This document shows positions 21,696 to 46,907 of a stretch of DNA of 64,000 nucleotides, piece by piece (within the stretch, counting starts at the first letter, position 1; each line of letters opens with the position of its first letter). The position numbers and the translations under genes were made by a program. The stretch is from Diphasiastrum complanatum. Lineage: Eukaryota; Streptophyta; Lycopodiopsida; Lycopodiales; Lycopodiaceae. Below the pieces are notes generated by a model. That model was not told where the DNA came from and did not search any database. It was given only the letters and a program-made list of their open reading frames with translations. The stretch covers positions 3,819,089 through 3,883,088 of the forward strand of contig CM055100.1 in assembly GCA_029204225.1 (NCBI GenBank), given 5' to 3'.

Positions 21696-21764
<69 letters not shown>

Positions 21765-22111
21765 AGGTGTAAAAGCAGAATTACGGATAATCTAATTGAT
21801 CATGAGGCAATCATCAAGCTAACATAATCAAACAATTCAAGCAAACATAATCAGACAATTCAAGCAAGAAAATAATCAATACACGAGCAACGTCAATTTT
21901 CTCTCACAAAACACGTGCTGTATCAGACAACTCTGATCTGTACATATAGTCGCATGACATCTGTGTGCCAAGAACCAAAAAGGTTCATCCCTACCATACT
22001 GCCTACATTCTACCTAGACATGGCCCAAGTCAGGCCAAGAAAGCATTTAGCCGTTAAACAAAATGGGCAGTTAATATTGATAGTTGGTGTCCCGTGAATC
22101 GGACACCAACA
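21695..22111 (-). repeat. Copia 3' LTR with internal (GA)n, minus strand
   Basis: Edges TGTTGG (21695) and CCAACA (to 22111) form a 6-bp terminal inverted repeat. On the minus strand it follows a polypurine tract (gagatggggat, 22112-22122) and the RNase H fragment, as a 3' LTR should. A 60-bp (GA)n microsatellite (21701-21760) sits directly inside the outer edge. A short hairpin GGTGTCC/GGACACC lies at the inner edge. An LTR-edge copy recurs at 23600-23682. Confidence 0.7.
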
Positions 22112-22145
22112 ATCCCCATCTCAATGTTAACCCCCATCCATTTCA

Positions 22146-22440
22146 CTATAGCTCATCCCCATACACCACCTTTCCGTCCTGCACTAATTCCTTGACAAAG
22201 TGACACTGAATATCATCATGCTTGCTCCTCTTGTGCAGACCGCCATTCCTGTAAATGAAAATGCATCCCTGATTGGCGTTGAAGATTTTCATATCACCAA
22301 TGGGGATTCCCATTTCGCTGCAGAAGTTGCTGATCCAGACGTACTCCTGAGCTCCATAACACAGTCCCATCAGCTCCGCCTCTGTGGAAGAGAGAGCTAC
22401 GGACTTCTGTTTGCTGCTTGCCCAGCTGACAAAGGATGTG
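22146..22440 (-). pseudogene. Copia RNase H fragment, minus strand
   Basis: Minus-strand translation gives WASSKQKSVALSSTEAE, LMGLCYGAQEYVWI and KHDDIQCHFVKELVQDGKV, the copia RNase H C-terminus. It leads into a PPT and LTR at 21695-22122. The 5' neighbour is a piece of RT in the opposite orientation, so an inversion breakpoint lies near 22440. Confidence 0.85.
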
Positions 22441-22645
22441 CTCAAACAGAAGGAGTGGATTATGATGAGACATTCGCTCCAGCAGAATTGGGTCAATCAA
22501 AATTCTTCTGAGCTGGGTAGTGACACATGACATGCAGGTATATCAGCTAGATGTCAAACGGGAAGATGTGTATACAAAGCAGCCCGAAGGCTTTGAGCAG
22601 GATGAATAGAAGGTTTGTAAGCTGAACAAAGCCCTATATGGGCTA
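22441..22645 (+). pseudogene. Copia reverse transcriptase fragment, plus strand
   Basis: Broken frames give EGVDYDETFAPA, then SLDVKREDVYTKQPEGFEQDE and KVCKLNKALYGL, the start of copia RT palm (canonical YxETFAPV..., QLDVKTAFLNG..., K.LYGLKQA). Stops are present, and the alternating segments show decay. It joins unrelated sequence at 22646-22655. Confidence 0.85.
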
Positions 22646-22655
22646 TAACAGGCAT

Positions 22656-22822
22656 CCATACCTCCTGATACAACTCGTATTACGTCTTTTTTCAGCAACA
22701 ACACTATATGATACTACTCTACTCCTGGCAGCTATTCTTGCTCCCACTTATGGACAATTGGCAGTTCGTAGTTTATAGTTATATTACTCATTTCTCTTTT
22801 ATGCATAGTTTTTCTTAGAGAC
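22656..22822. repeat. 167-bp inverted repeat, left arm
   Basis: The reverse complement of 23826-23992 matches at 166 of 167 positions (a/g difference in caaca(a/g)cact). The 1003-bp spacer holds copia and LINE-tail pieces. Confidence 0.95.
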
Positions 22823-23490
22823 AATTCTCTTTGACAAGGAACTGTTCTTGGACAAGAAAGGATTCAAGAGATGCAATGCTGATCCTAGCATCTTTCTCAA
22901 GAAGGTTGATAACGATATCACCATTCTAGCCATTTACGTTGATGACATCATACTGATTGGGAACAATGATGAGACATTGACCATCTCAAAGAAGGAATTG
23001 GCTAGTGAATTTGAGGTAAAGGATATGGGAGACCTACACTATTATCTTGGAATTCAGGTGATCAGGGACAGAGTCAAGAGGACAATTCAATTCACCTCAA
23101 TCAAGAGAGATATATTACAAATCTGATTAAAAGGTTTGGGATGGAAAATTGCAGTCCTATAGGAACTCCCCAAGATCAGGGAACCAGGCTCAATAAAGAT
23201 ATGTGCCCAAAATCAACAGAGGACCAGGAGGAGATGAGGAAATATCCCTAGAGGAATCTGGTGGGATCACTTATGTATGCCATGGTTTGTAGTAGGCCAG
23301 ACATAGCCACCGCCACAGGGATGCTGAGCAGGTATCTGGAAAATCCGGGCTTGGATCACTGGCATGCTGCAAAGAGGGTATTAAGGTACTTGAGAGGCAC
23401 CATTGGGCTTGGCATAAAGTACGGAGGTCCATTCGAGGGCATATCAGGGTTTGTGGACTCTGATTGGGCAAGGGACATCGACGATAGAAA
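22823..23490 (+). pseudogene. Copia RT palm to pre-RNase H fragment, plus strand
   Basis: The frame over 22848-23126 has FKRCNADPSIFL, the catalytic IYVDDIILIG (YVDD motif) and FEVKDMGDLHYYLGI. A frame change follows, and 23261-23490 gives GSLMYAMVCSRPDIATA and HWHAAKRVLRYLRGT, ending at GFVDSDWARDIDDRKST. It stops where RNase H should begin; there the sequence switches to an inverted RT start. Confidence 0.88.
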
Positions 23491-23494
23491 GTCT

Positions 23495-23678
23495 ACGATT
23501 CTGGCCTTGTGTCTCTCCACGTTTCCATCTGCATCAAACTTTAGCTTAAATACCCACTTACACCCGATGGCTCTTCTGCCCGCTGGTAGGTGCACTAGAT
23601 TCCAAGCTAGAAAGCATTTACCCCTTAAACAAAATGGGCGGTTAATATTGACAGTTGGTGTCCCCTGAATTGGGCACC

Positions 23679-23682
<4 letters not shown>
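23495..23682 (-). pseudogene. Inverted copia RT start fused to LTR-edge sequence
   Basis: Minus strand reads LPAGRRAIGCKWVFKLKFDA and NVERHKARIV, the conserved first RT block. It is preceded on that strand by sequence like the LTR edge at 22030-22111 (shared taaacaaaatgggc(a/g)gttaat). This fusion of LTR edge and RT block is not a normal element order. Confidence 0.8.
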
Positions 23683-23724
<42 letters not shown>

Positions 23725-23825
23725 AAGAAAGAAAGCTTTATTAATGTCTTTTCCATGCCACAAGGCATATAAGGCCCAAAGGAGTACATGTCAAGTATGT
23801 GAAAACCATGGGAGCGCATATAAAC
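23683..23825 (-). mobile_element. LINE 3' end with hairpin and (TTTC)n(TC)n tail, minus strand
   Basis: On the minus strand: ATGCC-TTGT-GGCAT stem-loop (23755-23768), a nine-base spacer, ATTAATAAAG, then (TTTC)n (23721-23735) and (TC)n (23683-23720). The same layout ends the LINE copies at 32.4-33.3 kb and 43.1-44.1 kb. Only the last 100 or so bases before the tail are kept, unless the adjoining inverted-repeat arm is also LINE 3' UTR. Confidence 0.7.
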
Positions 23826-23992
23826 GTCTCTAAGAAAAACTATGCATAAAAGAGAAATGAGTAATATAACTATAAACTACGAACTGCCAATTGTCCATAA
23901 GTGGGAGCAAGAATAGCTGCCAGGAGTAGAGTAGTATCATATAGTGCTGTTGCTGAAAAAAGACGTAATACGAGTTGTATCAGGAGGTATGG
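23826..23992. repeat. 167-bp inverted repeat, right arm
   Basis: Partner of 22656-22822, with 166 of 167 positions complementary. It lies directly next to a LINE 3' end. Confidence 0.95.
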
Positions 23993-24157
23993 ACCGTCAC
24001 TGACGTCGTCTAGGAGGGTTCTTCTTCATATTTTCTTTGGAAGTACAGTCCTCAGAAACAGCTAAGTTTTCTTTCTCTTCTTTGTACAGTTCTAATTAGT
24101 CTTTGCGACTTTTTTTAAAAAGAAGAAACGTCAGGCAGTCCTTTTCTATTTCTGAAA

Positions 24158-32420: not shown

Positions 32421-33215
32421 ATGTCTATCTCCCCGTTGAATCTAGAGGTTTACCTCTGCTCCCGCTGTATCTCTCACAATCACTCTCATACGGCTTGTGT
32501 TACTGCATTGGACAGCTACGCACCTCTTCCCATCAGCTTGCTGCTGTTGAGACTGGTCGCTGCTGGAATATCCCGCGTGAGCATAGATTATGTCACCTCT
32601 GTTCTATGCGCAAGCTTGAAGATGAGGCACACTTCTTACTTCAATGCCCAGTTTATTACGAGATCCGTGGTCGATATTATTGTCTTTATTGGGATGGTCC
32701 GCATACACTTACCAGTTTTTTCTCTTATCCTGATGCTTGGTGTACCGTGTTTGGGGCTTCTTATCCGTGAGATGCTTTTACTTCGTTAGCACTTTTGCCT
32801 CCGCACGATCATATGGGCATAGACTCTCAGCAGTTGCTAGTTACAGGATACTTTCAAACACGAGCCCATGATGAGGATTCAGATGATGATATTGACATAC
32901 CTGTCCTGCCACGGAAGAAAACCCGTCATGGTTGCAGACAACTAGTACAGCCTTCATCTCGACGCACCGTTCAATGGACACTTCGGGCCTATTTTACTTG
33001 ATCTCTCTTCTTCACCTGGCCCAGGTTGTGGGCATCCCTGCTTTCTCCTAGTCATCAGTCCTACCTGGCCCGGATTGTGGACGTTGTATTGTTTACATTA
33101 CTTTAGATCTCATGTACAGTTTTCTTCAGTCTGCACATTGACGATGCTCCCATGCATCTTTGTACATATGTATTTGTCTTATGCACCTATGGGTGCCTTA
33201 AAGACGTTAATAAAG

Positions 33216-33265
<50 letters not shown>
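32421..33265 (+). mobile_element. 5'-truncated LINE: ORF2 C-terminus, 3' UTR, hairpin and (TC)n tail
   Basis: The frame near 32495-32770 gives SHQLAAVETGRCWNIPREHR and then RLCHLCSMRKLEDEAHFLLQ, a CX2C...H...C motif typical of the C-terminal region of non-LTR retrotransposon ORF2. The sequence then goes on to a basic-acidic tail ending in TAA/TGA near 33001. The 3' UTR carries GCACC-TATG-GGTGC (33183-33196), a nine-base spacer, GTTAATAAAG and the (TC)n tail (33218-33265). The protein closely parallels the minus-strand LINE at 43332-44135. The endonuclease and RT parts are missing. It ends 128 bp before PANC exon 2. Confidence 0.8.
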
Positions 33266-33268
<3 letters not shown>

Positions 33269-33393
33269 AGTTTGTATGTCAACATTTTCCTTGCTAGAGA
33301 TTGACTTTTTTTTCCATAGTAAATGAAGGCCTTGCATTCTAGGAAATTAATGCTGCAGAGTGCTGACAAATCCCATGGGTGTTTGCATGCTAG

Positions 33394-33726
33394 CCTTTTG
33401 GAGTCGATGCCATTTTCAATCCATTTGACCTTTATGAGCGCCATTCACGTCTGAATACATCAGCTAATGGAATTGCTGGGAGCCATGACACAAAAGGTTT
33501 TTTGCAAAGTGATGATTCAACATTGTGTGAGGATGATACTTATGGTCAGGAGCATGAAACCTGGATTCAAGTTGAGAAGCTGTCGAAGCCTCTTTGTGGT
33601 CAAAACCGACCAATTTTCTTTAGGGGAGTGGCAACAGTTGTCGCTAAGTTATTCAACATTGTGGAACCTGATGTAGCTATTTTTGGGAAGAAAGATTTCC
33701 AGCAATGGCGTGTTATATGCCGAATG
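33394..33726 (+). CDS. PANC: Pantothenate synthetase exon 2 (residues 84-194)
   Basis: The acceptor is GCTAG at 33389-33393, directly followed by CCTTTTGGAGTCGATGCC (PFGVDA). The exon carries VDAIFNP, then a hydrophilic insert (about residues 103-140) that is lengthy in plant enzymes, then [31 protein letters not shown] and the GKKDFQQW motif (residues 181-188). The last is the K-x-D-x-Q-Q active-site segment. It ends at ATG with donor GTCAGA. The acceptor lacks a good pyrimidine tract, and the (TC)n tail of a LINE lies 129 bp upstream. An in-frame TAG immediately upstream fixes the exon start. Confidence 0.92.
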
Positions 33727-34790
33727 GTCAGATGCCTCTTCTTGAACTTATGCTCTTTTATTTTTAATGAGACACCTTTTAATTGTTGGATATCTTATAC
33801 GAATAGCTGAATGTATCTGATCCTGTCAAGGTTAATTTCTTTACAAATAAGTTTCTGGATAATGTATGATCCAATTTTACTTTTTCAGCTAGTATAAAAC
33901 TGTAGAATGGAACAGTAAATTGTCAATTGAGTATCAATCTCCAACTATGAGATCAAAAAAATCAGACTAGTTGCAGGCCTTCTCACAAAGGAACATTGCT
34001 ATAGAGTTCTCCATCGAAGAAGCAGGCAATCACCATAGTGATCAACTACTAGAATGAGGGAGATAGTGTCTATTTATGCGAATTGGAGGCCAACCAAGGT
34101 TGGGGTACAAAATAGAAGGTCAGGTCCATGCCAAATGACTAGACTAAGACCAAGGCATCATAAATATCAATAGACCCTAATCACAAGTTACAATGCACAC
34201 TTATGTTATCAACAAAAGCGTTGTCCTTAATATCATCAAAATCGTGAAGGTGAAATAAGGTGCTGGAGAAATGTGTATGCTGAACAAGATGCCACAGCAT
34301 GTTTATAACAAGAATGGGTTGGCGAAAATGCAGATCCTGCAAAATGTATGTGCTGGAGAATAAGCCCAGAAGGTGGATACTGAAGAAGATGCTGTGAAAG
34401 ATGTGTCAAATAATCAATATGTTTATGGCAAAGCATAAGAAAGGAAGCTGTAAAATTGGAAACACCTTATGACGGCTGCTGAAGGTTGATGTGAAGAAAT
34501 TTGGTTTTTCAACGATACTCTTTCAAGCTGTGCAGGATGCAACATGTATTGGAAAACCAGTGCCATAACAAAACTGCTGAAGCATGCAATGGTGTTGGCA
34601 AAAAAAAAAAATGGAACCCAAGCTTGGTCTATAGATCAGCAATGCCATCAAATGATAGCATTAGACCCCTCAGTATCGATTTTTTCCAGCATGTTAAATC
34701 ACCAACCATAGACGCAAGAATGGAACATCTCAGAAAGGATATTATGCCAGCACTGAAAAACACCCAGGCATGATCATATTTGAGACTAGG
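33727..34790 (+). other. Intron 2, 5' part; nothing recognised
   Basis: AT-rich intron DNA. Repeated 'gctggagaa/gctgaagaa..atg' phrases occur at 34258-34400. No coding or RNA gene signal. Confidence 0.4.
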
Positions 34791-35288
34791 CTTACTATGG
34801 AACCTTAACCACTAGCTTACATTAACCTTGAATCATCATAAGATCAAAGCTCACTTTTCTTCTCTCAATCTTTCCTCTCATAAAGATAGTAGCAAAAAGC
34901 AAATCTAACAAAAATCCAACAAGCATGAAAATCCAATAAACATGAGAGACATGGAAGAGAAGCAAGACATCCAGTGCCAAAGTGGTAGACTCTCAACCTT
35001 TCTTTGATTGAACATGAAAAAAGAAATACATCGTGCCACTATTTATAGTGAAGACTGGGCATTTGGCGCTATTGTTTACTGGCCAATTTCTACCTCCCTA
35101 TACATTTGAATTTCGAAAATTGATTTAATTCCCACAATGGCCTTAGAATCACTATTATTTATAACTATCAAATGAAATAATGACGTGCTCATCGGGTTAG
35201 ACTTACACATGTAGAGTGCTAGAGCCCTCGCACTTATTCTTTTATCTATTCTGTGCTATTTACATGGTGTACCGCCAAATGCCCAACA
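34790..35288 (-). repeat. Gypsy LTR fragment related to 61.3-62.9 kb LTR
   Basis: Matches the LTR at 61319-62915 in several blocks: ttctctcaatctttcctctcat (versus 61535-61557), the aaaatccaa..agcatgagagatggaag region, and 'atcgggttagacttacaca' with 'gcacttatt' (versus 62830-62880). It ends GCCCAACA at 35288, like CCTCCAACA at 62915. It is shorter and diverged. Confidence 0.6.
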
Positions 35289-35289
35289 A

Positions 35290-35980
35290 GAAACATGATC
35301 AACTTGAAAGATAATACAATTGTAATGTGAAAGTAAAATTCTCAGCGCCTTATTGTAGGAAGCTCAATGATATAATCAAAACCTGAAAACATGAAATACG
35401 TGAAGATCCAATTGATACTTAAATGATGACATTTTATCTCCCTAGCTCTGGATATCCAAAAGTGGATAACTTAGTACTCTATAGTTGGAGCTTGAAATTG
35501 AAGATATATATGGAACTTGTGAGCCAAAATTAGAAAGATGAAGTTCTGATAGTCTTGAGTTTTCTCATCCCACTTTCTAGGTAGCTGAATTTGATGCTTG
35601 CTTGAACAACGACTATCTTTAGGTGTCCTCAAAAATTTATATCTAACTAAAATACAATGAATCTTCTTGTCAAAATGTGGAAATTCATTTTGAATGGTTT
35701 TGAGTCCCCGTTTTCTACTTCTACTCAAAATCTACACTTGATCAAGTAGATGTAGACGTTGATCAAGGCTAGTACTTCCTTTTTTGGCATCAGAGTATAA
35801 AAAGTTACTTGATCCTTCATTAAGCACTTACCTATTTGTCAAGGTACTCGGTTGTAGTACGAGTATCGATCCAACGGGGAGAGGTAAAACTACGAGATGG
35901 GAGTTGGTGGATTCATGCTACTTGTTGAGAATTGAAAGTTTTGAGATCAATCTATGCATGGTTTACTGTTGTTTGTAGGT
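35290..35980 (+). other. Intron 2 sequence, nothing recognised
   Basis: AT-rich; open frames are short and without recognisable motifs. Confidence 0.4.
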
Positions 35981-35984
35981 TGAG

Positions 35985-36720
35985 TCAAAAAGGAGTCTGA
36001 CATTCCTTTTGCTCTAGATGGGGTTTGGAGGTTAATCCTAGTAAGACCAAGATTATGGTCTTCAACTCCTCAAGCCTTTATGCAACTCAAGAATAGCCTC
36101 TTGAGATAGTTCCTTATTCTCATATTTAGGCGTACTATTTACTGGGTCTTATATTTACCATGAGACATGCAACTACTAATTGACTTGGGAAGGGTTATGC
36201 CTCGAAGTAAGGGTCGGTTATTTGAGGCACTACTCACTCCTTCAACCATGTATGCTGCAGAGACTTGGTGCACAAGACTCACATCAACAGACTGGGCTAG
36301 TATCACTCATCTATAGATCACCATGTTGATATGGACCAAGCCCTTGTTTCATCAGATTATCTTAGCAGAGTTTGCGATGCCTCCACTATTTGAGGCCCTC
36401 TTTCAGTTGGTCACATACATATACAACATATTAGAGTTTACAGATAGGGAGGTAAGGTATCCATACTTGGGCACGCACATCTTCAGATCAGTTAAACTAC
36501 TGAGGTCATCACTATTCATGATTCTTTGGAGCCTCTCACCTGCTAGATAAAGTTAGTATTTCTATATCCAGTTGTCCCGAGGGGTCCCATCAATACATTA
36601 GGAGAGACATGCATTGTGCTTACCTCCAAAGAGTATGGTAGGGCCCTTTGGGGGAGAAGCTCGATTTTGATCACACTCATTTCCTTGAGATGGATATTGT
36701 TGGGGGGCTAACATTACCTC
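35985..36720 (+). pseudogene. LINE reverse transcriptase remnant
   Basis: Broken plus-strand frames give VNPSKTKIMVFNSSS, the post-catalytic RT motif of non-LTR elements (usually GLxVNxxKTKxMVF), then SYLG-like remains. At 36200-36400 follow LFEALLTPSTMYAAETW and a segment like the downstream connection domain. Multiple stops and frame changes show decay. It may be the upstream part of the same LINE family as 32.4 and 43.3 kb, but no overlap allows proof. Confidence 0.6.
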
Positions 36721-39210
36721 GCTATCCAGACCCCATGTTATCTCACTTCCTTAGATTGATAGCTTAGAGTCTCATCTCACCGCTTATATGTTGCAACTGG
36801 ACGCTTTCAGGATATTCTGATATGTTGATGGTTGATGTAGTGTACTTCATCAAAATCATGTTGAGATGAGGTAAATACATATATGGAAGGGATTTGTGTT
36901 CATAAAGTGAAGGCTTTTGAACAAAGTATGGATATTAGACTTTCTCTAATAGGTATTAAAGAGGCAATTTGTTGACTTTGGGGAAATTTGTGATTTATAT
37001 TAAACTCTTTGTGAAAGTGAAATATGCCTTTGGATTTTTCATAAGTATTTTTAAAGAAGAGGATTTTTGGTTCACGTCATGTGTAGCATAATGTTGCAGA
37101 TTGATCTGGATGGAGTTTTCTCGGTTGATACTAAAAAACTATTAGCTCTAGAGACTATGCCAAGTTAGCATTAGTATTTGATCATGGAGAGAAATTTGTC
37201 CAATATTTTGAAGTTTGTTTTGTTGGAGCATTCTTATTCTATTATGCCATATTGGTGATGTTTGAAAGCAAGAAGCTTGTAAACACATTTCAAACTCACA
37301 AGTTTTGCAGATAATCAATATTCAATAATGCTTCTGACTTTAGAGTGGAAGGGATATATGATATGAACTAAAGAGTCTTTAAGGTGTTTGGCCTACATTA
37401 TTTGCTGCACATTGTGCGTATGTCGCTCTGTACATGTGATGCTTTATTTTATGTTGAAGTATAGAAGAACTTACCAAAAGGGCAAAAGTTGTTTCAATTG
37501 GACTAGTGAGTATAGCAATGACCTTGGTTCATTGTGAAATTTTTGGTGAAAGGTTGTTAGGTCTTCTTACGTTGGATAACCAAATTGAGAAAATCAGGTA
37601 GTTACTAGGAGATATGTCATAGGTGTGCAGTCCTAGAAAGTAAACTAATTGAGAATAGTATCTACTACCTTTATCATGCTCTTTGTGTTATGTGATTAAC
37701 CTAAAGTGTTGACTTATGTTTGGAAGAATTAATTGCTACATGTAGAGCTTCGATAGACCAATGTCATTTATTGATGTGTACAACTATTGAATGTCAGATT
37801 TTTTTGGAAGACATATATATGGAGAGAATCTGCTAGGTACCTATATTTGTGTAGGATTAAGAAAACTCTTGCACCATCTATTCAACCATGATGGATGACA
37901 CAGACAAGTATTACACTTGGACATGTTGGTCACTAATAGAGTTACTGATGAGGGATGATGATGATATGCAACGCGATCTCTCTCAAATCTTGATTGTCGC
38001 TCAAAGTGGTTTGTGAATGTCTGCAAAGACTAGTAAAAGCTTTACATAGGGTGGGTGGTGGTGGTATGGAGTTCCAATAACTCTTTTGTTTCAACATTAG
38101 CACCTCAAAACACAGTAACAATAGCTCTATGGAAGGGATACAATTCTTATTGATATGTCTAATTGGAATTGAGATTGAAGCCCTGAAAAAGTCAGATTTG
38201 AACAATCAATACATAGACGAGAAATTCCTCTCCTAGACTTTTTCATTTTAAGTGGGCAAGAATGTTTTGTGCCCTTAGTTGGGGCCAGTGCGTATGTTAG
38301 CAAAGATGGGACGTTAGTTATTCCTAGAGAATCACTTCCAAGAGGATCATGGATTATGGTGCGAACTATTTGCTATGTGAAGTCATCCTCACGAGTGAGC
38401 ATCTATGGTCTGGACACAAGTTAAGTGCATGGAGTCAAGCTCAAAATGTCACAGTCAGGAGAATCTGTTTGCAATAGCTTGTGGTTGGATAATGAGTCTA
38501 TTGTCTACAATTTTGGTGTTTTGGATCATGCAAGTTAGTTCACGGACTTCAATAAGCTGCATATCTTAGGTTTTCGGTTGTTTCAATCATCCCCCAAGGA
38601 TTCCTTCATCCCCCACTAGGGAAATTCTGGATTTATGAGGGGGCCCCTCCATCATCCATGAAGAATTTATCCTCCACCTAGGGATCTTCTCAAGGATAAT
38701 AGCATCCAAGAAGGGATGTTCTTGAGTGTACACTTGATTCATCTTCTTGAAACCTCTTTAGTCTTCATATATCTATTCGTTTCATGAACATCAAGATCAT
38801 GGAAAACATCAGTGAAGACTTTCATTCCTTTTTCTATTTCCATGACAATATTTTTTACGCAACATGGTCAGTGCATTTATATATGAAAGGGTAGGGTAGT
38901 GTAGTTTTTTGACAAGCTTGTGCGTTAATATTCTGAACATGTGGAGTCATCAACATTGTTGCTTTTATGACTAGTTTGTGACCTGGTAATTTAGAGAATG
39001 TTGTATTTAGGAACTTTCTACCAAATATTTAAGCTTTTGGCTCCCCGAGAATCATGGCATACTAATAATGTTCTGGTGAAATGTTTTCCTTAGCCCTTTA
39101 TTGAGTACAACATGGAGAGCTGAAATTTGAATTGAAACATTGTCTTTTTTTGGTTGTAGCTTTAATTGACAGACTTGTTTACATGTTGTTCTTCATTGAA
39201 TTGATTTTAG
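36720..39210 (+). other. Intron 2, 3' part; nothing recognised
   Basis: AT-rich, no convincing homology on either strand. The C-rich stretch at 38588-38690 (repeats of catccccca) is the only compositional outlier. Confidence 0.4.
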
Positions 39211-39324
39211 GTGCGTGACTTGGATTTTGCTGTGGACATAGTTGGTTGTCCTATTGCAAGGGATTTTGATGGAATAGCGATGAGCTCTCGCAATGTTCAC
39301 CTATCGCCTACTGATCGTTGTCAG
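39211..39324 (+). CDS. PANC: Pantothenate synthetase exon 3 (residues 195-232)
   Basis: Acceptor TTGATTTTAG, donor GTAGTA, 38 codons, phase 0 at both ends. Encodes [19 protein letters not shown] and the GIAMSSRN motif (MSSRN at residues 218-222), the conserved ATP-phosphate-binding loop of PanC. Confidence 0.95.
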
Positions 39325-39909
39325 GTAGTAACCAAAATTTGTATTTTGTTATTTCCTTTTTCATATCCTAGGAAAATAACAACGATTCTCTTTTTCTTTT
39401 TGTGGGAATGTTATAACTTCTGGTAGTGCCTATATTTTTCTTGCATAGAGCGTGCTGTCTTTTGGGAATTCTCCTCCTCAAACCATAGTATCCAGCATTG
39501 GTGTGATTCCGATTGTGAGATACCAAAAAAGATATGAAGACAATTGTTCTTATTTGTTAGAGCCCAGTCTCAACTCTAATATGACCTTGAAACAATTGGT
39601 TACCAGAGGGCTTGAGGCCAAGTATTGGCGAAGGCCAATAACCAAACTAGACATTTGGTCCAAGCTGGGATAGGTGCATCACAAGTAGTGAATTGGTGTG
39701 ATTGCTTGACAAGTTGTTAGAGAAGCGGTGATTTGTGATTGGGATCCTAAGCGTCAGTGATGAGATGCTAGCTGGCAAGCAGCCTAGGTGACCAAGTGGG
39801 TCATAGGTCCATGGCTCTCATACCAGCCATTTACTAGCTGATTTTCAACCTCTCGTCACTCATCAATTTTCTAGGCGATCCAAGTGTACTTTTATTGTTG
39901 TTGCAGTTG

Positions 39910-40220
39910 AATTTATGGGATTTCTTGTCAAAGAAGTACTGTTTTCCTTGATCCTGCTAAAGTAGGAACCATTGTTCAATGCCCCACTTCTACTAATGTT
40001 CATGTTGTTCATATGTTTTTTTGCCACTTACTTACATAAATCAAATCTGTGCCTCACATTGCTACCATTGCCCATCCACTTCATGCTTTATTATGCAAGG
40101 GTACTGAATTTGACTCGTCTCCACTTTGTCTAGATGCTTTTACCACTAGTCAAAGTAAGTGCTTTATTGTTGAAACTTATGCTAGTGTTGTAGGTCTTGG
40201 GGCTCTCCCAGGTCCACAGA
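39910..40220 (+). pseudogene. Ty3/gypsy RT-RNase H fragment in PANC intron 3
   Basis: Pieces read DPAKVGTIVQCPTSTNVHVV, then HIATIAHPLHALLCKGTEFD and, after a small deletion, FIVETYASVVGLGAL. These match the gypsy connection domain (DPxKVxAI...P, FLGxxxYYRRFI, PLxxLLxK) and the first RNase H motif (xxETDASxxGLGAVL with D to Y). It takes up most of the middle of this short intron. Confidence 0.65.
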
Positions 40221-40543
40221 ATTCTTCTCACATGGAATATGGGAATAATTCCTACTTTGGTAAAAACGTCATTGTAAATAAAAAAAGCAACCTACAATAT
40301 TTTTTAAGTATGGAACGATTTGTGGGGTTAAATATTAGCAAAATATGATTCTATGGCTTGAACTACCTGAAGCAATATAACTCCCAATGTCCTTATTAGG
40401 TATATCCAACAGTCTGTTGTCTTCATTGAATTTGAAAAATGAAAATCATAAAATTATTGTGGCTGTATCTCATTCATCAGATAGGTTAAATGGAATCAAT
40501 ATCACTTGAAATTTTGGTGGTCTATAACAACTTGTCCTACCAG

Positions 40544-40675
40544 GCTTTGTCCATCAGCAGGTCTTTACGAGAAGCAGCAGAAAGTGTGACAGAGTGTGAG
40601 GTCAGTGCACAATTGCTGGTTGAGCATGTGAGGAAAGCTATCACGGCAGCAGGAGGAAAAATCGACTACGCATCT
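40544..40675 (+). CDS. PANC: Pantothenate synthetase exon 4 (residues 233-276)
   Basis: Acceptor CCTACCAG, donor GTGAGT. Encodes ALSISRSLREAAE and the C-terminal helical domain up to GGKIDYAS. The C-terminal domain of PanC closes over the active site; the expected continuation (an I/V-V-D-x-E-T/S-L strand) is supplied by exon 5. Confidence 0.93.
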
Positions 40676-41242
40676 GTGAGTAAATGCGAACAAGTACTCT
40701 ATCGTTTTGTGAATAGCGAAAGGTGATGGAAACACAATTGTGGTACCTTAGGTTTAAGAACTTTAAGGCGTTCATTCATATGTAATTGTAAAGTTTGTGA
40801 GGGCACCAGGAATAATCATTATCCTGACCCGAAAGATTTTTCTTATCAAAGCATGAACGCTTGACAGTTTTGGTTACATATATGGCTGTGCCGCATGTGG
40901 TACATCAATTTCTGGACGGACTTTACAGATCTTTGACGTTTATGACCCCAATTTTTTCTTGACATTATATAGCCTAATTAAGAGGCACATGAGGTGACTG
41001 CCATCATTTTATCACCAGACTTCTACAAAGTGAACTTTTGACACAGACTATTTGTGTCGCTAGATCAAGAAGTCAAAACCCACAAATTAGAAAGAGCACT
41101 GGCATTTCTTGTAGCTGCAACTATTTCTTCTCCATAATTCCCAAGAGAAGAATGAGCATTCTATTTAAAAATGAGGCATCAAGGACTTTCAATGTTTCAT
41201 GTCAAATCATAGAATCAATGAACCGTGTACGGTTCACCACAG

Positions 41243-41268
41243 TTCTGAGAACCGTACGGTTCTCAGAA
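41243..41268. repeat. 26-bp perfect palindrome
   Basis: The centre is GAGAACCGTACGGTTCTC, extended by four complementary bases on each side. Related GTACGGTTC/GAACCGTA pieces flank it at 41222-41235 and 41279-41290. Confidence 0.85.
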
Positions 41269-41351
41269 AATTTAAGGGGGAACCGTAGTGAACAGTACTA
41301 ATTAATTAATTAATTAATTATTATTTTTTTTGTTCCTACCCCCAAAAACAG

Positions 41352-41460
41352 CCAGTGGTTTTTACAGTTCTATTTTACAGTCTGTGGATTTTACAGTTCT
41401 ATTTTACAGTCTGTGGATTTCATAGTTCTATTTTACAGTCTGTGGATTTTTACAGTTCAA
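41352..41460. repeat. 29-bp tandem repeat, about 3.5 copies
   Basis: The unit 'ttacagttctattttacagt' plus 'ctgtggatt' recurs at a period of 29-30 bp. Confidence 0.9.
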
Positions 41461-41639
41461 ACTATCATAAACAGCCCAAAAACTGTAAAATGAGGGCCAA
41501 AAACTTTTTTTCTATTTTACCTCCTAAGAGGAATGTTGAACAAAAGATTGAATTAATACCGGAATCATGTCCCGTCGATAGACATCCTTAAAGAATGAGT
41601 CTTAAGGAGGAAGAGGAAGTGAGACGGTCGATGATTATC

Positions 41640-41785
41640 TAGCCAGAGGGCAAATACAACCTTGTTATTCCCCATTTGCCTCTTCGGTCATTCTTGTAAA
41701 GACGAAGATGGATCATGGCGTATGTGTGTGGATTATTGAGGTTTGAACAAGATAACTGTATCTTATGTCACGTATAGATGATCTG
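41640..41785 (+). pseudogene. Ty3/gypsy RT fragment
   Basis: Reads GQIQPCYSPFASSVILV, then after a shift EDGSWRMCVDY and GLNKITVSY, the second and third gypsy RT blocks. It ends within the RIDDL block, where a copia fragment begins. Confidence 0.75.
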
Positions 41786-42597
41786 TTTGATCATACTTAG
41801 TGCAGATGACTTAGAAGGGATTGAGAAAACTAAGCTAGATCTATCCAAAGAGTTCAAGATGGTAGATCTCAGCCATTTGCACTTCATTTTGGGTATGGAA
41901 GTACTTACATCTTTAGATTATGTCTTCATTTTTCAATCTAAATATGCTCTTTCATTACTCAATAGATTTAACATGCATGGATGTAAGCATGTGGAGACTC
42001 CTATGGAGCATGATGTAAAAGTAACCAATAAAGAGGATGAAAGATCCTTCAAGGACATCACTCTTTATAGGCAACTTATTGGCTCCTTAATGTGGATAAC
42101 CATAACAAGACCTGATCTTTGCTATAGTGTTTGCAAGCTTAGTCAAAATATGCAAGATCCATTAGTTATCCATTGGAAATGTGCCACAAGGAAATTGAGA
42201 TACATCTTGGGGCAGACTGGATTTTGGGATCCTTTATAGAGGTGAAGGTTTAGTTTTTTGGCTATCTAAGAAGCAAGAAACAATACTTCTTTCATCAACT
42301 GAGGCCGAGTACAAGGCTCTAACAACCACAACCAAGGAGGTGCTTTGGATTAAGAGGTTGCTTGAGGAGCTCAAAGTGATCAGATCAGGTGTCATTCAAC
42401 TCATCTACAATGATAACATCTCGGCCCAACACCTAGCATCCAATCCAATCTATCATGCAAGGAGAAAACACATGGAGGTTGCTCACCATTTTGTAAGGGA
42501 GAAAGTCCAAGCTAAGGAGGTCTCATTGGAGCATGTTCCAAGTGAAGAATGCATTGCTGATATATTGAAAAGCCACTTCAAAAGGCTGCATTTTTAA
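41786..42597 (+). pseudogene. Copia RT end and RNase H in PANC intron 4
   Basis: The first frame (to 42239) gives DDLEGIEKTKLDLSKEFKMV, LHFILGMEV, the HVETPM block, YRQLIGSLMWITITRPDLCY and HWKCATRKLRYILGQT. A frame change near 42235 leads to WLSKKQETILLSSTEAEYKA, LIYNDNISAQHLASNP and HMEVAHHFVREKV, ending at a TAA at 42597. No LTR was recognised downstream. The YVDD-containing palm is absent. Confidence 0.9.
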
Positions 42598-42741
42598 AGC
42601 TTAGATCAGCCCTTGGTTTTATTAATAAAGCTATGTTATCATCTAGCTAGATTGTGAGAAGTATTGAAATTTCACAATTCTAGCTTGTATAGTTTGTTGT
42701 AATTCTACATGTATGTGATGATGTGGCATTGGCCATGTGGA

Positions 42742-42960
42742 TAGACATGAGGGTCCGTGCCGGAATGCCCGCGTCCGCGTCCGCGTCTGACGCCCGGACC
42801 CAGACATGAGGGTCCGGGCCGGAATGCCCGCGTCCGCGTTCGCGTCCGATGCCTGGACCCGGACGCGTCCGACCCCGGGACGCGGGGTAGGACGCGTCCC
42901 TTTTTTTTTTAATTTTTTTGGCTGGACGCGTCCAGCGTCCGGACGCGTTTTTTTTAAAAA
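42742..42960. repeat. GC-rich tandem repeat with GGACGCGTCC palindromes
   Basis: A 59-bp unit (gacatgagggtccg...ggaccca) starting at 42744 is repeated at 42803. It is followed by four copies of the palindromic core GACGCGTCC (about 42861-42952). This is far more GC- and CpG-rich than the surrounding intron. Long frames across it are repeat translations. Confidence 0.8.
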
Positions 42961-43061
42961 AAAAAAAAAACAAAAGGCGCGGGCACTGCGGACTGTTCTG
43001 CAAAAGCCCGAGAGCAGAGAAAGAGGGTGGGAGCGGGAGAGAGAGAGAGTGAGTGAGGGAG

Positions 43062-43154
<93 letters not shown>

Positions 43155-44135
43155 AAGAAAGAAAGAAAGATTTTATTAATGTCCTTGAATACCCTAAGGT
43201 ACATAGGACTAAGAAAAGGTACATGTCAAGTGTGCACATAGGAGCTTAAAGCTCAATCATCTATAAAACTAAATAACTGCAAATACAATGCATAAAGACA
43301 GCTGGCCCATTCAGGATCCAATAGCCTGGAATCATATATCACGATGCCCATCAGCATGAAAGAAATGGTGGATGGTATGCTGTGAAGGTGTGATTAGATG
43401 TGCCGTGGACCTCTGTCGCCGGATAGGCCGTCGGTGTCGTCTTTGCTGCCGTGGCGCTCTGGGCTGTGATCTAATAACTGACTGTCTCTCTAGCCGTCGA
43501 CATGGTCTCTGATGCCGGTGTACGAAGGAGTCGGGAATCTCGGCCTCTCCATCTGAGTCGCTGCCTATGGGTACCTCGGATCTCTGTCTTCGACGGGATA
43601 TGCACTCATCAATGCTCAGCTGTGTCAGGGAATGTGTACCATCTAGTCTCCTCCTCCTCAGGTCTGACATCTCTCGGATCATCAGTGCGACACATCTAGG
43701 GTCCTCATAAGATATCAAGGTAGAAAGTGTAACTGGGTGCTCTCTGAAAAAGCAGTAGTACCGCCCCCGTATCTCATCGTAGGCTGGACATCTGAAGAGG
43801 AAATGTGACTCGTCCTCAGTCTCATGCATAACACACATGCTACAAAGCCGGTCCTCTCGTGGGGTGCCACTGTATCTGCCAGTCTCAATAGCCAGCTGAT
43901 GTGAAAAAACCTGAAACTGACCCATCGCTATCCGCAGACTATGTGATATACTCCTCAGCAAGTAACCAGATACTATGGGGAAGCCAGCCGGATCAAGAGA
44001 TAGAAAGTGTGTACGATAAAACTCACTCTTGGTCCCCAATGGACCCTGCCAAGTGATATGAAGATATGATCTGTAAAGGAGGCCTCTGATGTACTGGTGG
44101 GTGCCCGCAGGTAGATCACCGATCTGGATACCCAA
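43062..44135 (-). mobile_element. 5'-truncated LINE, minus strand, with hairpin and (TTTC)n(TC)n tail
   Basis: On the minus strand an ORF2 C-terminus (44135-43332) is followed by a 3' UTR. Then come the stem-loop GTACC-TTAG-GGTAT (43189-43202), a nine-base spacer, ATTAATAAAA, (TTTC)n (43150-43170) and (TC)n (43066-43150). It is the same family as the LINE at 32.4-33.3 kb, and the region is GC-rich. Confidence 0.85.
43332..44135 (-). CDS. LINE ORF2 C-terminal part (267 codons open)
   Basis: Open from 44135 to a stop at 43332. N-terminal region: LRSISHSLRIAMGQFQVFSH and QLAIETGRYSGTPREDRL. Then the zinc-knuckle-like LCSMCVMHETEDESHFLFRC (C-X2-C-X8-H-X4-C), with PAYDEIRGRYYCFF. The last 100 residues are arginine-rich (RRRQRSEVP; RAPRQQRRHRRP) and end at HADGHRDI. 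Similar cysteine modules close ORF2 in many non-LTR retrotransposons and are thought to bind RNA. The lack of stops suggests a relatively young insertion. The first Met is only the first in the open frame; endonuclease and RT are missing upstream. Confidence 0.75.
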   Translation of the reverse strand: MGIQIGDLPAGTHQYIRGLLYRSYLHITWQGPLGTKSEFYRTHFLSLDPAGFPIVSGYLLRSISHSLRIAMGQFQVFSHQLAIETGRYSGTPREDRLCSMCVMHETEDESHFLFRCPAYDEIRGRYYCFFREHPVTLSTLISYEDPRCVALMIREMSDLRRRRLDGTHSLTQLSIDECISRRRQRSEVPIGSDSDGEAEIPDSFVHRHQRPCRRLERQSVIRSQPRAPRQQRRHRRPIRRQRSTAHLITPSQHTIHHFFHADGHRDI

Positions 44136-44139
44136 TGTG

Positions 44140-44407
44140 GAGAGGAGAGAGAGAGAGATGGTGTTTGTGTGTGTGGATATTGTTGATTTGTGTGCGTACA
44201 GATGTGTGTGTGTGTGGTGATCTGTGTGTGAGAGAGAGAGAGGAAGAGACAGAGAGTGTGAGGGACAGAGAGAGAGAGGATTTGTGTGTGTGCGCGCGTG
44301 TACGAGACATGGTGTGTGTGTGTGTGAGTTTAGGATTTAGGGTTTAGGGTGCTTGGGTTTGGGGTTTAGGGTTTAGGGTGAAAGAGAGAGAGATTAGATT
44401 TGCGTGC

Positions 44408-44487
<80 letters not shown>
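44140..44487. repeat. (GT)n/(GA)n low-complexity block
   Basis: Alternating GT-rich and GA-rich microsatellites, ending in (GT)n 44411-44440 and (GA)n 44440-44487. The same (GT)n(GA)n arrangement lies at 47679-47731 on the other side of the hAT gene. Confidence 0.9.
44329..44379 (+). repeat. Interstitial telomere-like TTTAGGG repeats
   Basis: About six degenerate TTTAGGG units, the plant telomere heptamer, sit between GT- and GA-rich simple sequence. Confidence 0.8.
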
Positions 44488-44489
<2 letters not shown>

Positions 44490-45593
44490 TGGTCGCTCGT
44501 CCCATTTGGGATGAGGTGGAGTTGTTGCCCGACAAAAAGTGGCGTTGCCCTTTTTGTCGAAAGCAGTTCACAGGGAACGCCTCTCGGGTTCGAGCACATC
44601 TGGGGGGGTTGCAAGTCCGACCCACGGGGGGACGCTACGGGATCGGCGTTTGTATGGTCATCCCCGCTGCGGAGAGGGCTCGCATTCTCGAGGCATATTC
44701 TGAGTCAGTTGCTGAGCCCGACGTGCCGGCCACAGATGCCGCAGATTCTATTTCCACTGGTGCACCCACTGCCACCGCCCCCACCATCGCATCCGCACCC
44801 GCCATCGCCTCCGCCTCCGCCACAGCCAGACCTGTACCCCCTCCGCCAGTACTTCCCATGGATCCACAGCCTCCACTGCTGCACCTACGCCTCTGCCATC
44901 ACCGTCAGATCTGCACGGCCCGTCCACATCCTCCGCTTCCACACCTGCACCTATACCACCACCTCCAGATCCACATCCTCCCAGACATCCACATCCCGAG
45001 GCACCAGACAGATTTCCATGCCGGGATCTTTCAGAGAGGGGCAGCACAGAGAGGCCACCAGGACCATAGCACAAATGTTCTATGACCTGAACCTCCCCTT
45101 TATCATGGCATCATCCCGCATCTTTCGAGAGGCTATCTCGAAAGTTGCAGTCTGGGGCCCGGCTACACACCACCCACAGCCGACGCAATACGCGACCCTT
45201 TGCTCCAGGACCAGGTTGCATCAATCAGAGAGAGACTGGCCGCACTGCAGGAGGCTTGGGATAGATACAGCTGTTCCATCATGGTTGATGGGTGGATTGA
45301 TCGTCGTAGATGTCCACTCATCAATGTGATTGTTTCTAGTTGTTACGGTTCCATGTTCCTGCGCAGCATCGATGCCTCCGAGGCAGGGAGAGTGCACTCG
45401 GCCGAGTACATTTACGGCATCATCCGCCAGCGATAGAGGAGGTCGGGCCACAGCGCGTTGTCCAGGTACAATTTTTATTCATTAGTTGCTTGGTCATTTA
45501 CTGCTTAATGTTGATACAAAAGTTTTGCGTGGTTTTCGATTGATTGCAATGTGTTTCCAAGCTGTGAACTGATCGTTGAACATACCGCAAAAG

Positions 45594-45817
45594 GTTGTGA
45601 CGGACAATGCGTCCAACTGCCACGGTATGGGGGAGCTTCTTATGGCAGAGTACCCCTCCATTGTCTGGACTCCATGTGCTGCACACTCACTGGACCTCCT
45701 CCTGCATTCCATCGGGCGCTTGCCTTGGGTCAGTGAGATTCTCACGAGGGCACTTGCGGTTGTGGACTTCGTCACACGCAAGCGTCGCATGACTGCCCTT
45801 TTTCGCACATTCAGCAG
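45594..45817 (+). pseudogene. hAT exon with DUF659 TDNAS motif
   Basis: Reads VVTDNASNCHGMGELLM, then SIVWTPCAAHSLDLLLHSIG and RRMTALFRTFSR. This matches the conserved core of plant hAT transposases (TDNA...N, C.AHxLNLLL), with one of the catalytic aspartates in TDNAS. Preceded by AAAAG and followed by GTAATA. Confidence 0.85.
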
Positions 45818-45907
45818 GTAATATGGTGTTTATTTTTTGGCTCGTTCAAGATGCTTCCTTTTTTTTGCTGGTTTCATGTGTGCCTCTCATTCCGTTTGTC
45901 AATGCAG

Positions 45908-46240
45908 GCTCGACTTGAAGAAGCCCGCTCGCACCCACTTCGCCTACCAGTTCATCATGCTTGAGCGGCTACACAAGCTCAAGGGTGATTTACGGCACAT
46001 GGCTACTTCGGCAGAGTTTACCGCCATGGACCTGTCCACGACCCCAGAGGGCTTGGCCTTCCACGACATCCTCTTCATGGAGCCTTTCTGGGTGGATATG
46101 CAGCAGCTGATGGACGTCATGCGCCCCATCTACTCTAATCTGAGGCTCGTTGATCGCGAGGGGTGCACGATGGGCCTCATTTACGAGTTCATGGACCGCA
46201 TAGGCGAGTCTCTCCAGCGTTTTGAGTTGGACCCTGCCAG
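45908..46240 (+). pseudogene. hAT exon, middle region
   Basis: Open across its length: PARTHFAYQFIMLERL, EGLAFHDILFMEPFW and IYSNLRLVDREGCTMGLIYE. Acceptor AATGCAG and donor GTATAA. Corresponds to the alpha-helical region between the DUF659 and C-terminal domains. Confidence 0.8.
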
Positions 46241-46907
46241 GTATAACTTTTTTCCGTCTCACCATCCTTACTTCCATTTCGCACTCTGTTTCGTCTTGCT
46301 GCTGCAACACGATGGTATGTAACTGTTGCCTCCACGTGGTTTGGTCCACAGGTTGGAGCCTATCAGGCGCTTGTGGTAGCGACGATGGGATAAGTTTCAC
46401 CGGCCCATTCACAGTGTGGCCCACATACTGCATCCGTTGTTTCAGAGCGAGAGGCAGTACGACGATGCAGAGCTACGTGCGGACTAGTTCGCATACATCC
46501 GCCTCCTCAGCAGCGACACTGGTATTCGCAACAGGCTCGAGGTGCATAGGCTCAGTTACAGGTAAACTCTTGCTCTGTCGTATGCTGTCGTTCGTTCGAG
46601 TGGTTGCTAATTAATGCAGGACTGTTTTGCTTGCGTGTGCGAGCGGAACTAGTCAACGTTCAGCCTTGTTCACACGAACAGGCGGAACCGTCTGACGACG
46701 GAGCGATGCAATGACTTGGTGTACTGCAACACCAACACCAGGGTGGTTCGACGCATCACGGAGAGCATGAGGGCAGGAGGTGCACGCGCCCTACTGCTGC
46801 AGATATATTTCGTTGCTCTGTCGTTTGCTTTCGTATTGGTTTAAGACATTCAGTTTAACGCCCTCACAGTTGCTTCGGCTATTCTCACGAATGATTGACT
46901 TGTGCAG

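Follow-up and report, generated by a model that had tools for sequence, protein, structure and literature searches.

A covarying two-helix 3' hairpin, pyrimidine tails and same-orientation stacking in a LINE family of Diphasiastrum complanatum

In the L1 lineage of maize and sorghum (LINE1-1_ZM with ZmSINE2/3), a compensated 3' hairpin of the stringent type is taken to be the recognition site of the reverse transcriptase (RT) (PMC3747384). Here we describe a family of long interspersed nuclear elements (LINEs) from Diphasiastrum complanatum, three 3' ends of which lie in a 64,000 nt stretch of contig CM055100.1 (assembly GCA_029204225.1, positions 3,819,089–3,883,088), referred to below as the window. 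Like the maize and sorghum lineage, it is a plant LINE with a 3'-terminal hairpin and compensatory changes in the stem. In the maize and sorghum hairpin the loop contains a conserved UCU and the 3' flank has CGAG, and almost all L1s of flowering plants are described as ending in poly(A) (PMC3747384), whereas the present family has two helices, loops such as UAUG, UUUU and UUAG, an RUUAAUAAA box and a TTTC/TC tail.

The family can also be compared with LINEs known for their arrangement or their tails. Zepp and Zepp-like LINEs of green algae insert into their own copies, which produces tandem arrays rich in 5'-truncated 3' ends (PMC3446292, PMC8226300). The present family resembles them in its tandem arrangement and in having 5' ends at the tail of another copy, where we infer insertion, but Zepp is described as forming one, probably centromeric, cluster per chromosome, while here small TC-joined stacks occur at many sites on the 23 largest contigs. 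Togen likewise prefers a simple-repeat target, but it belongs to the relatives of NeSL in the restriction-like endonuclease group (PMC4640811); the family reported here has an endonuclease of the apurinic/apyrimidinic (APE) type and a partial preference for TC. In Lepidoptera, the simple-repeat 3' end of RTE, an element with a single open reading frame (ORF), founds microsatellite families, and slippage has been proposed (PMC2887409). Our family shares a 3' end of simple-repeat units with that element and differs from it in an upstream ORF, a long 3' untranslated region (UTR) and a covarying hairpin. Open-access searches, outside which subscription papers and Repbase lie, returned no description of this combination.

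The three 3' ends, here assigned to copies A, B and C, are present as given in a preliminary description of the window (33183–33265 on the plus strand; 23768–23683 and 43202–43066 on the minus strand), each with a hairpin, the box RTTAATAAAR and a pyrimidine array. The inner stems GCACC/GGTGC, ATGCC/GGCAT and GTACC/GGTAT and their four-base loops were also given correctly, and three of the five pairs change with pairing kept. The spacer that follows, said to be exactly nine bases long, has 9 nt in A and B and 8 nt in C. It had been taken as plain sequence, but its last five bases pair upstream with GUCUU, GCCUU and GUCCU, respectively, forming a second helix. The consensus layout is GUCYU, AU, a 5-bp inner stem with a 4-nt loop, 3 or 4 nt and ARGAC, directly followed by RTTAATAAA.

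Copy A (plus strand, 32424–33265, the 5' limit being approximate) consists of a 5'-truncated ORF2 C-terminus with a zinc finger and broken frames, the 3' UTR, the hairpin and the tail. Its two-helix hairpin (33176–33205; outer stem GTCTT/AAGAC, inner stem GCACC/GGTGC, loop TATG) is indicated by RNAfold, RNAalifold and pair counts; the box and tail (33206–33265) consist of GTTAATAAAGC, then TTC, then TC, with 24 units of the TC repeat placed at 33218–33265 by the tandem repeat finder. Copy B (minus strand, 23683–23999) retains a 5'-truncated 3' UTR, hairpin and tail, and its homology to relatives extends to ~24019, which is 283 nt away from the 3' terminus of the query. The hairpin (23746–23775) has the outer stem GCCTT/AAGAC with one C–A mismatch, the inner stem ATGCC/GGCAT and the loop TTGT, and is followed at 23745–23683 by ATTAATAAAGC, (TTTC)n and (TC)n. 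In copy C (minus strand, 43067–44139) a 5'-truncated ORF2 C-terminus and 3' UTR precede a hairpin at 43181–43209 (outer GTCCT/AGGAC, inner GTACC/GGTAT with a G–U closing pair, loop TTAG) and a box and tail at 43067–43180, namely ATTAATAAAATC, (TTTC)5 and a long (TC)n. The (TTTC)n(TC)n tail ascribed to all three copies is that of B and C; copy A has only TTC followed by TC.

Copies A and C have in common an ORF2 C-terminal coding sequence with a C-x2-C-x9-H-x4-C motif, counted by eye (the Pfam zf-RVT match on copy C is below its cut-off, E = 0.35), and the copy C ORF matches copy A at 32426–32752 with 46.8% over 109 aa (tblastn, E = 1.4e-28). Copy B, which has relatives genome-wide, can be aligned with the other two over the last part of the 3' UTR. 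All three are related LINE ends, and the earlier assignment to a LINE family stands. A covariance model gives three strong matches in the window and no further 3' end, the next match having an E value of 1.9, and Rfam reports nothing on the window at its gathering score.

The second helix emerges from folding as well as from comparison. RNAfold of copies A and C pairs GUCUU with AAGAC and GUCCU with AGGAC outside the first-described stem, and RNAalifold on a plain MAFFT alignment of A, B and C returns a ten-pair two-helix structure in which four of the ten pairs covary, three in the inner helix (GC/GU/AU, UA/CG and AU/GC) and one in the outer (UA/CG), with copy C carrying the GU intermediate between GC and AU. 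When the partner is slid by 1–3 columns, pairing falls from 96.7% to 30–55% and no pair shows a double change. Covariation was assessed by column-shuffle tests. The three window copies have 95 ungapped columns, and when these were shuffled 20,000 times, three or more covarying pairs in an inner stem arose in 30 shuffles and both helices in 16; both helices with at least four covarying pairs, as observed, appeared in none. For the last 36 ungapped columns, which exclude part of the two-helix structure and concern the inner stem only, at least three covarying pairs appeared in 12 of 50,000 shuffles.

A covariance model built from the three window copies has 113 matches in 85 sources, these being the window and 84 of the 91 loci collected by then from the same genome (individual loci carry L numbers below). 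The matches represent 56 distinct rows, in which 95.4% of cells are paired, compared with 88.3% in shuffles, and 69 cells are doubly changed, compared with 25.7 (0/500 as high in each case). Further versions of the stem include GTACC/GGTAC in L083 and GTGCC/GGCAC in L067. Fifteen divergent 3' ends, kept out of 20 chosen ones by a filter of under ~80% identity, were aligned without reference to structure, and RNAalifold predicts this hairpin alone for them at -10.92 kcal/mol; 1000 gap-aware column shuffles gave a mean of -0.03 (standard deviation 0.17) and none was as stable. Covariation holds, by these tests, in divergent copies. Exact-pattern scans of viral and prokaryote contigs gave 0 matches.

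Several observations tell against a structure of this extent. The single-sequence stability is weak (z = -1.65, 0.44 and -1.81 for A, B and C; with 100 nt, -1.44, -0.02 and -1.08). Copy B folded alone is no better than its shuffles and, because of its C–A mismatch, gives the inner helix only (centroid); that mismatch occurs in none of 29 relatives, where the site reads GTCTT in 26, GTATT in two and GTCTG in one. Among the 56 distinct rows two of five measures fail to exceed chance, namely pairs with a double change (4 against 3.3 in shuffles, 219/500) and pair types (8 against 10.7, 500/500). RNAalifold on all 113 rows keeps just four inner pairs at -0.39 kcal/mol, which speaks against the outer helix on that alignment; we read this weak fold as an effect of many near-identical rows and broken old copies. 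Finally, the pairing in the 113 matches and in most of the 20 chosen ends is partly a product of selection, since the model that found them includes the structure. As a check on selection, 42 distinct sites were picked in the loci already collected by NTAATAA and the tail, with the hairpin ignored: ten pairs are present in 24 of them, nine in 17 and eight in one, compared with nine or more in 86 of 2000 random 40-mers. Taken together, these results show a conserved 3' hairpin with compensatory changes, of which the 113-row fold keeps part only.

The family is an APE-type LINE, that is, a non-LTR (long terminal repeat) retrotransposon. A nearly complete copy in L091 has an upstream ORF followed by a second one, which encodes an APE endonuclease and RVT_1 (E = 3.5e-30; 1.6e-31 in L089). 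The Exo_endo_phos match (E = 1.1e-8, above its cut-off) covers residues 23–281 of the L091 ORF, upstream of the RT, the end of which is frame-shifted in this copy. Matches in the Protein Data Bank (PDB) to LINE-1 ORF2p (1.5e-23) and R2 (1.3e-22) name no clade, as the two scores are nearly equal. The upstream ORF measures 231 aa stop to stop in L091 and 419 aa in L008, and was aligned from 11 places, 30–93% identical to the first; compared with Pfam and PDB it gave weak coiled-coil-like matches below cut-off or stray ones and nothing more. We note of L091 (4100–4424) and L093 that in L091 this ORF is without ~440 bp of a proline-rich N-terminal region present in other copies, and that the junction at the gap does not resemble GT–AG.

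The RTE affiliation suggested earlier was rejected on the grounds of this separate ORF upstream of the endonuclease/RT ORF and of the TTTC/TTC/TC tail, the tails reported for plant RTE being (TTG)n or (TTGATG)n (PMC3747384). Nor does the family have the poly(A) 3' end of the plant L1 type. A short interspersed nuclear element was considered for copy B and rejected, as the 5' ends of its relatives are scattered and some extend past 820 nt.

DNA searches of the 1.74-Gb assembly with the 3' ends, in which at most 40 candidates were scored for each B and C query, place matches on each of the 23 largest contigs (C1–C23), several of them far apart on one contig, and on small contigs also. The copy A 3' end has 46 matches from 152 first-look candidates. 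The best 40 of 1662 first-look candidates scored for copy B are 91–100% identical, and for copy C the best 40 of 1370 are all ~99% or more identical, so that subfamily C is young and was recently active; this describes the young end of the family. The B and C copies share the 3' end and are variably truncated at the 5' side, from 246 to more than 1700 nt from the 3' end.

Pyrimidine tails are not a property of the three window loci only but follow nearly all copies examined. Among 87 distinct copies the tail begins with at least two TTTC units in 35, with TTC in 6 and with TC in 30, which makes 71 in strict classes; the other 16 have mostly irregular TTTC or TC, with L037 reflecting a failure of the classing rule, and that rule assigns no tail to the second copy in L083 or to the upstream one in L040. 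TC runs vary widely in length, the longest per copy having a median of 48 nt. TTTC lies nearest the element in B and C copies, with TC beyond it, and nearly identical C copies have TC stretches of very different length, which would be expected from gain or loss of TC in the course of insertion or later. The preliminary description is partly confirmed: its observation is real and larger than first described, and the structure is better than stated.

The most interesting property of the family, a more unusual one than the hairpin and one absent from the preliminary description, is that copies are stacked in a locked orientation at their own tails. Of 52 distinct loci, 30 have a further copy in the same orientation within ~1.5 kb on the downstream side and one (L060) has a copy in the opposite orientation, a bias with a two-sided binomial probability of 3e-8. 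The 52 loci are what is left of 66 after removal of 14 duplicates, 13 recognised by a shared 3' flank and L068 by hand. The count comprises 29 cases by protein match and L007 by 5' UTR (proteins alone give 29 to 1); rows of the 5' UTR probe at approximately positions 1–33 were dropped as matches to the TC repeat only, and L007 (1–180) was kept. A further family hairpin is present in 20 of the 66 loci with flanks. Distinct neighbouring hairpins have the same orientation in 15 of 16 cases (binomial 5e-4), the inner stems are unlike in 12 of these 16 neighbouring pairs, and at least seven pairs cross subfamily types (L005, L038, L040, L061, L067, L073 and L076).

The 5' ends point to the same arrangement. 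A 5' UTR query gave 50 rows (the best 40 of 345 candidates having been scored), of which the five starting at query base 1 (L091 and L092–L095) all directly follow an array of TC or TC/CG. As L094 and L095 have their upstream sequence in common, four distinct full-length 5' ends remain. For three of these (L091, L092 and L094/L095) another copy, complete with hairpin, supplies the array as its tail; upstream of the match in L093 the DNA is TC-rich, and the stretch analysed there contains no hairpin. Of 31 truncated B and C copies, 8 show a TC run no more than 20 nt from the 5' junction (C, 4/10; B, 4/21); the corresponding share is 0.7% for random positions in the window and 4% for positions within these loci, both being local controls. 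The 5' junction of copy C likewise lies within TC-rich sequence. Same-orientation stacking at TC arrays is observed; that new copies insert into existing ones would be the event behind it, judging from the sequence.

We consider the most consistent interpretation, to which we give roughly two chances in three, to be that this is a large, recently active APE-type LINE of the stringent type, the UC-rich RNA tail of which primes on TC arrays, its own old tails included. The RNA would end in the two-helix hairpin, followed by a box resembling AUUAAUAAA and a short run of (UUUC)n, and the RT of the element would recognise the hairpin. Target-primed reverse transcription would start with the UC-rich tail paired to the nicked purine (GA-rich) strand, so that TC arrays would be favoured as targets and the new sense strand would come to lie in line with the old TC strand, hence the orientation. 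Each insertion would leave a new TTTC/TC tail, lengthened by slippage, and old tails, serving as landing pads, would take up new copies in the same orientation, so that stacks arranged head to tail would result.

The alternative that survives best, although we regard it as unlikely, is that the hairpin and tail are real but insertion is essentially random, and that stacks arise when dimeric, read-through transcripts are retrotransposed or when TC arrays undergo unequal exchange. TC arrays are recombinogenic, duplication of a single locus accounts for several of the stacked pairs (14 locus pairs have a common 3' flank) and 23 of the 31 truncated copies lack TC at the 5' junction, all of which such an origin would accommodate. 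The orientation bias nevertheless remains 30 to 1 once duplicates are removed, and complete 5' ends begin exactly at the array. Recent tandem duplication would not yield neighbours with unlike inner stems and of different subfamily types, and mixed subfamilies within one stack argue against recent exchange between arrays.

More doubtful still is an element aimed strictly at microsatellites, for which the (TC)n on either side would be target DNA and the element itself would contribute no more than the TTTC units. The order of TTTC and TC in B and C copies and the TC that precedes the five full-length 5' ends read would suit such an element, and microsatellite-specific LINEs do exist, for example Togen for (TG)n (PMC4640811). 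There is, however, little TC after TTTC in L040, L056, L060 and L028, and strict TC-specific targeting was rejected because TC is found at no more than 8 of the 31 truncated 5' junctions. That microsatellites and a hairpin coincide by chance at three loci is refuted, common as TC arrays are (four others in the window, each 40 nt or longer, are not preceded by a hairpin of this kind, although one, at 21700–21761, is probably the far half of the copy B tail), by the recurrence of hairpin, box and tail in 87 distinct copies, by the shuffle tests (0/20,000 and 0/1000) and by the tail-picked sites.

Priming of a UC-rich tail on TC arrays remains the reading that we prefer, and the following should be set against it. 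The TC-less junctions make TC a preference at most, though at some of them the alignment may break off within related LINE sequence. Pairs in the same orientation could arise from read-through transcription of stacked copies as well, and the AATAAA box could be a polyadenylation signal alone. The sample leans towards young copies, having been found by similarity with the best 40 scored per query. No target-site duplication of at least 8 nt was found outside simple repeats, and within TC arrays one would be invisible; target-primed reverse transcription is accordingly a proposed step of the scheme.

Two further pieces of the family, absent from the preliminary description, lie in the window. 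Copy D (plus strand, 36552–36810) is an old relic of an ORF2 C-terminus of the same kind (tblastn, 42% over 69 aa, E = 2e-10) with an RT-like remnant upstream, seen by eye in translation; a recognisable 3' end was searched for and not found. Fragment E (plus strand, 22655–22822) is a 168-bp segment 99% identical to the body of copy B (blastn) and is without hairpin or tail. It lies, inverted relative to copy B, within a Copia RT remnant recognised by eye. The stretch 21700–23682 holds a rearranged Copia-type element, with a 3' LTR at 22111–21762 (minus strand) and the first 74 bp of a 5' LTR at 23682–23609. The first base of the Copia-type LTR abuts the copy B tail and TC picks up again at 21761–21700, and the rearranged element sits in the apparent TC tail of copy B.

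Upstream of copy C, a TC/AC-rich stretch contains degenerate plant-type telomere repeats (CCCTAAA) at 44328–44379, and part of this stretch is found again downstream of LINE copies in L067 and L068. ORFs at 44378–46622, beside compound TC/AC arrays, resemble by eye a transposase of the hAT type that carries a BED zinc finger; two of them were compared with Pfam, without a match. A GC-rich 59-bp tandem repeat lies close to the copy C tail, at 42743–42864.

A fuller proposal, which we put forward tentatively and at somewhat less than even odds, is that the LINE makes its own landing sites: its UUUC/UC tail would pair with GA strands, TC arrays from earlier insertions would thereby catch new copies in a single orientation, and self-extending head-to-tail stacks would spread across all chromosomes, with an RT that reads a code of two-helix hairpins in which compensatory changes have set the subfamilies apart. 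The choice of RNA by the RT is open to experiment here, as subfamilies with different, almost always paired, stems in one genome amount to natural compensatory mutants. For the evolution of target choice, the 3' tail may direct copies to TC arrays and fix their orientation too, without a dedicated site-specific endonuclease. If this is true, part of the TC microsatellites of this genome would be LINE tails, which matters for marker design and for the assembly of stacked repeats.

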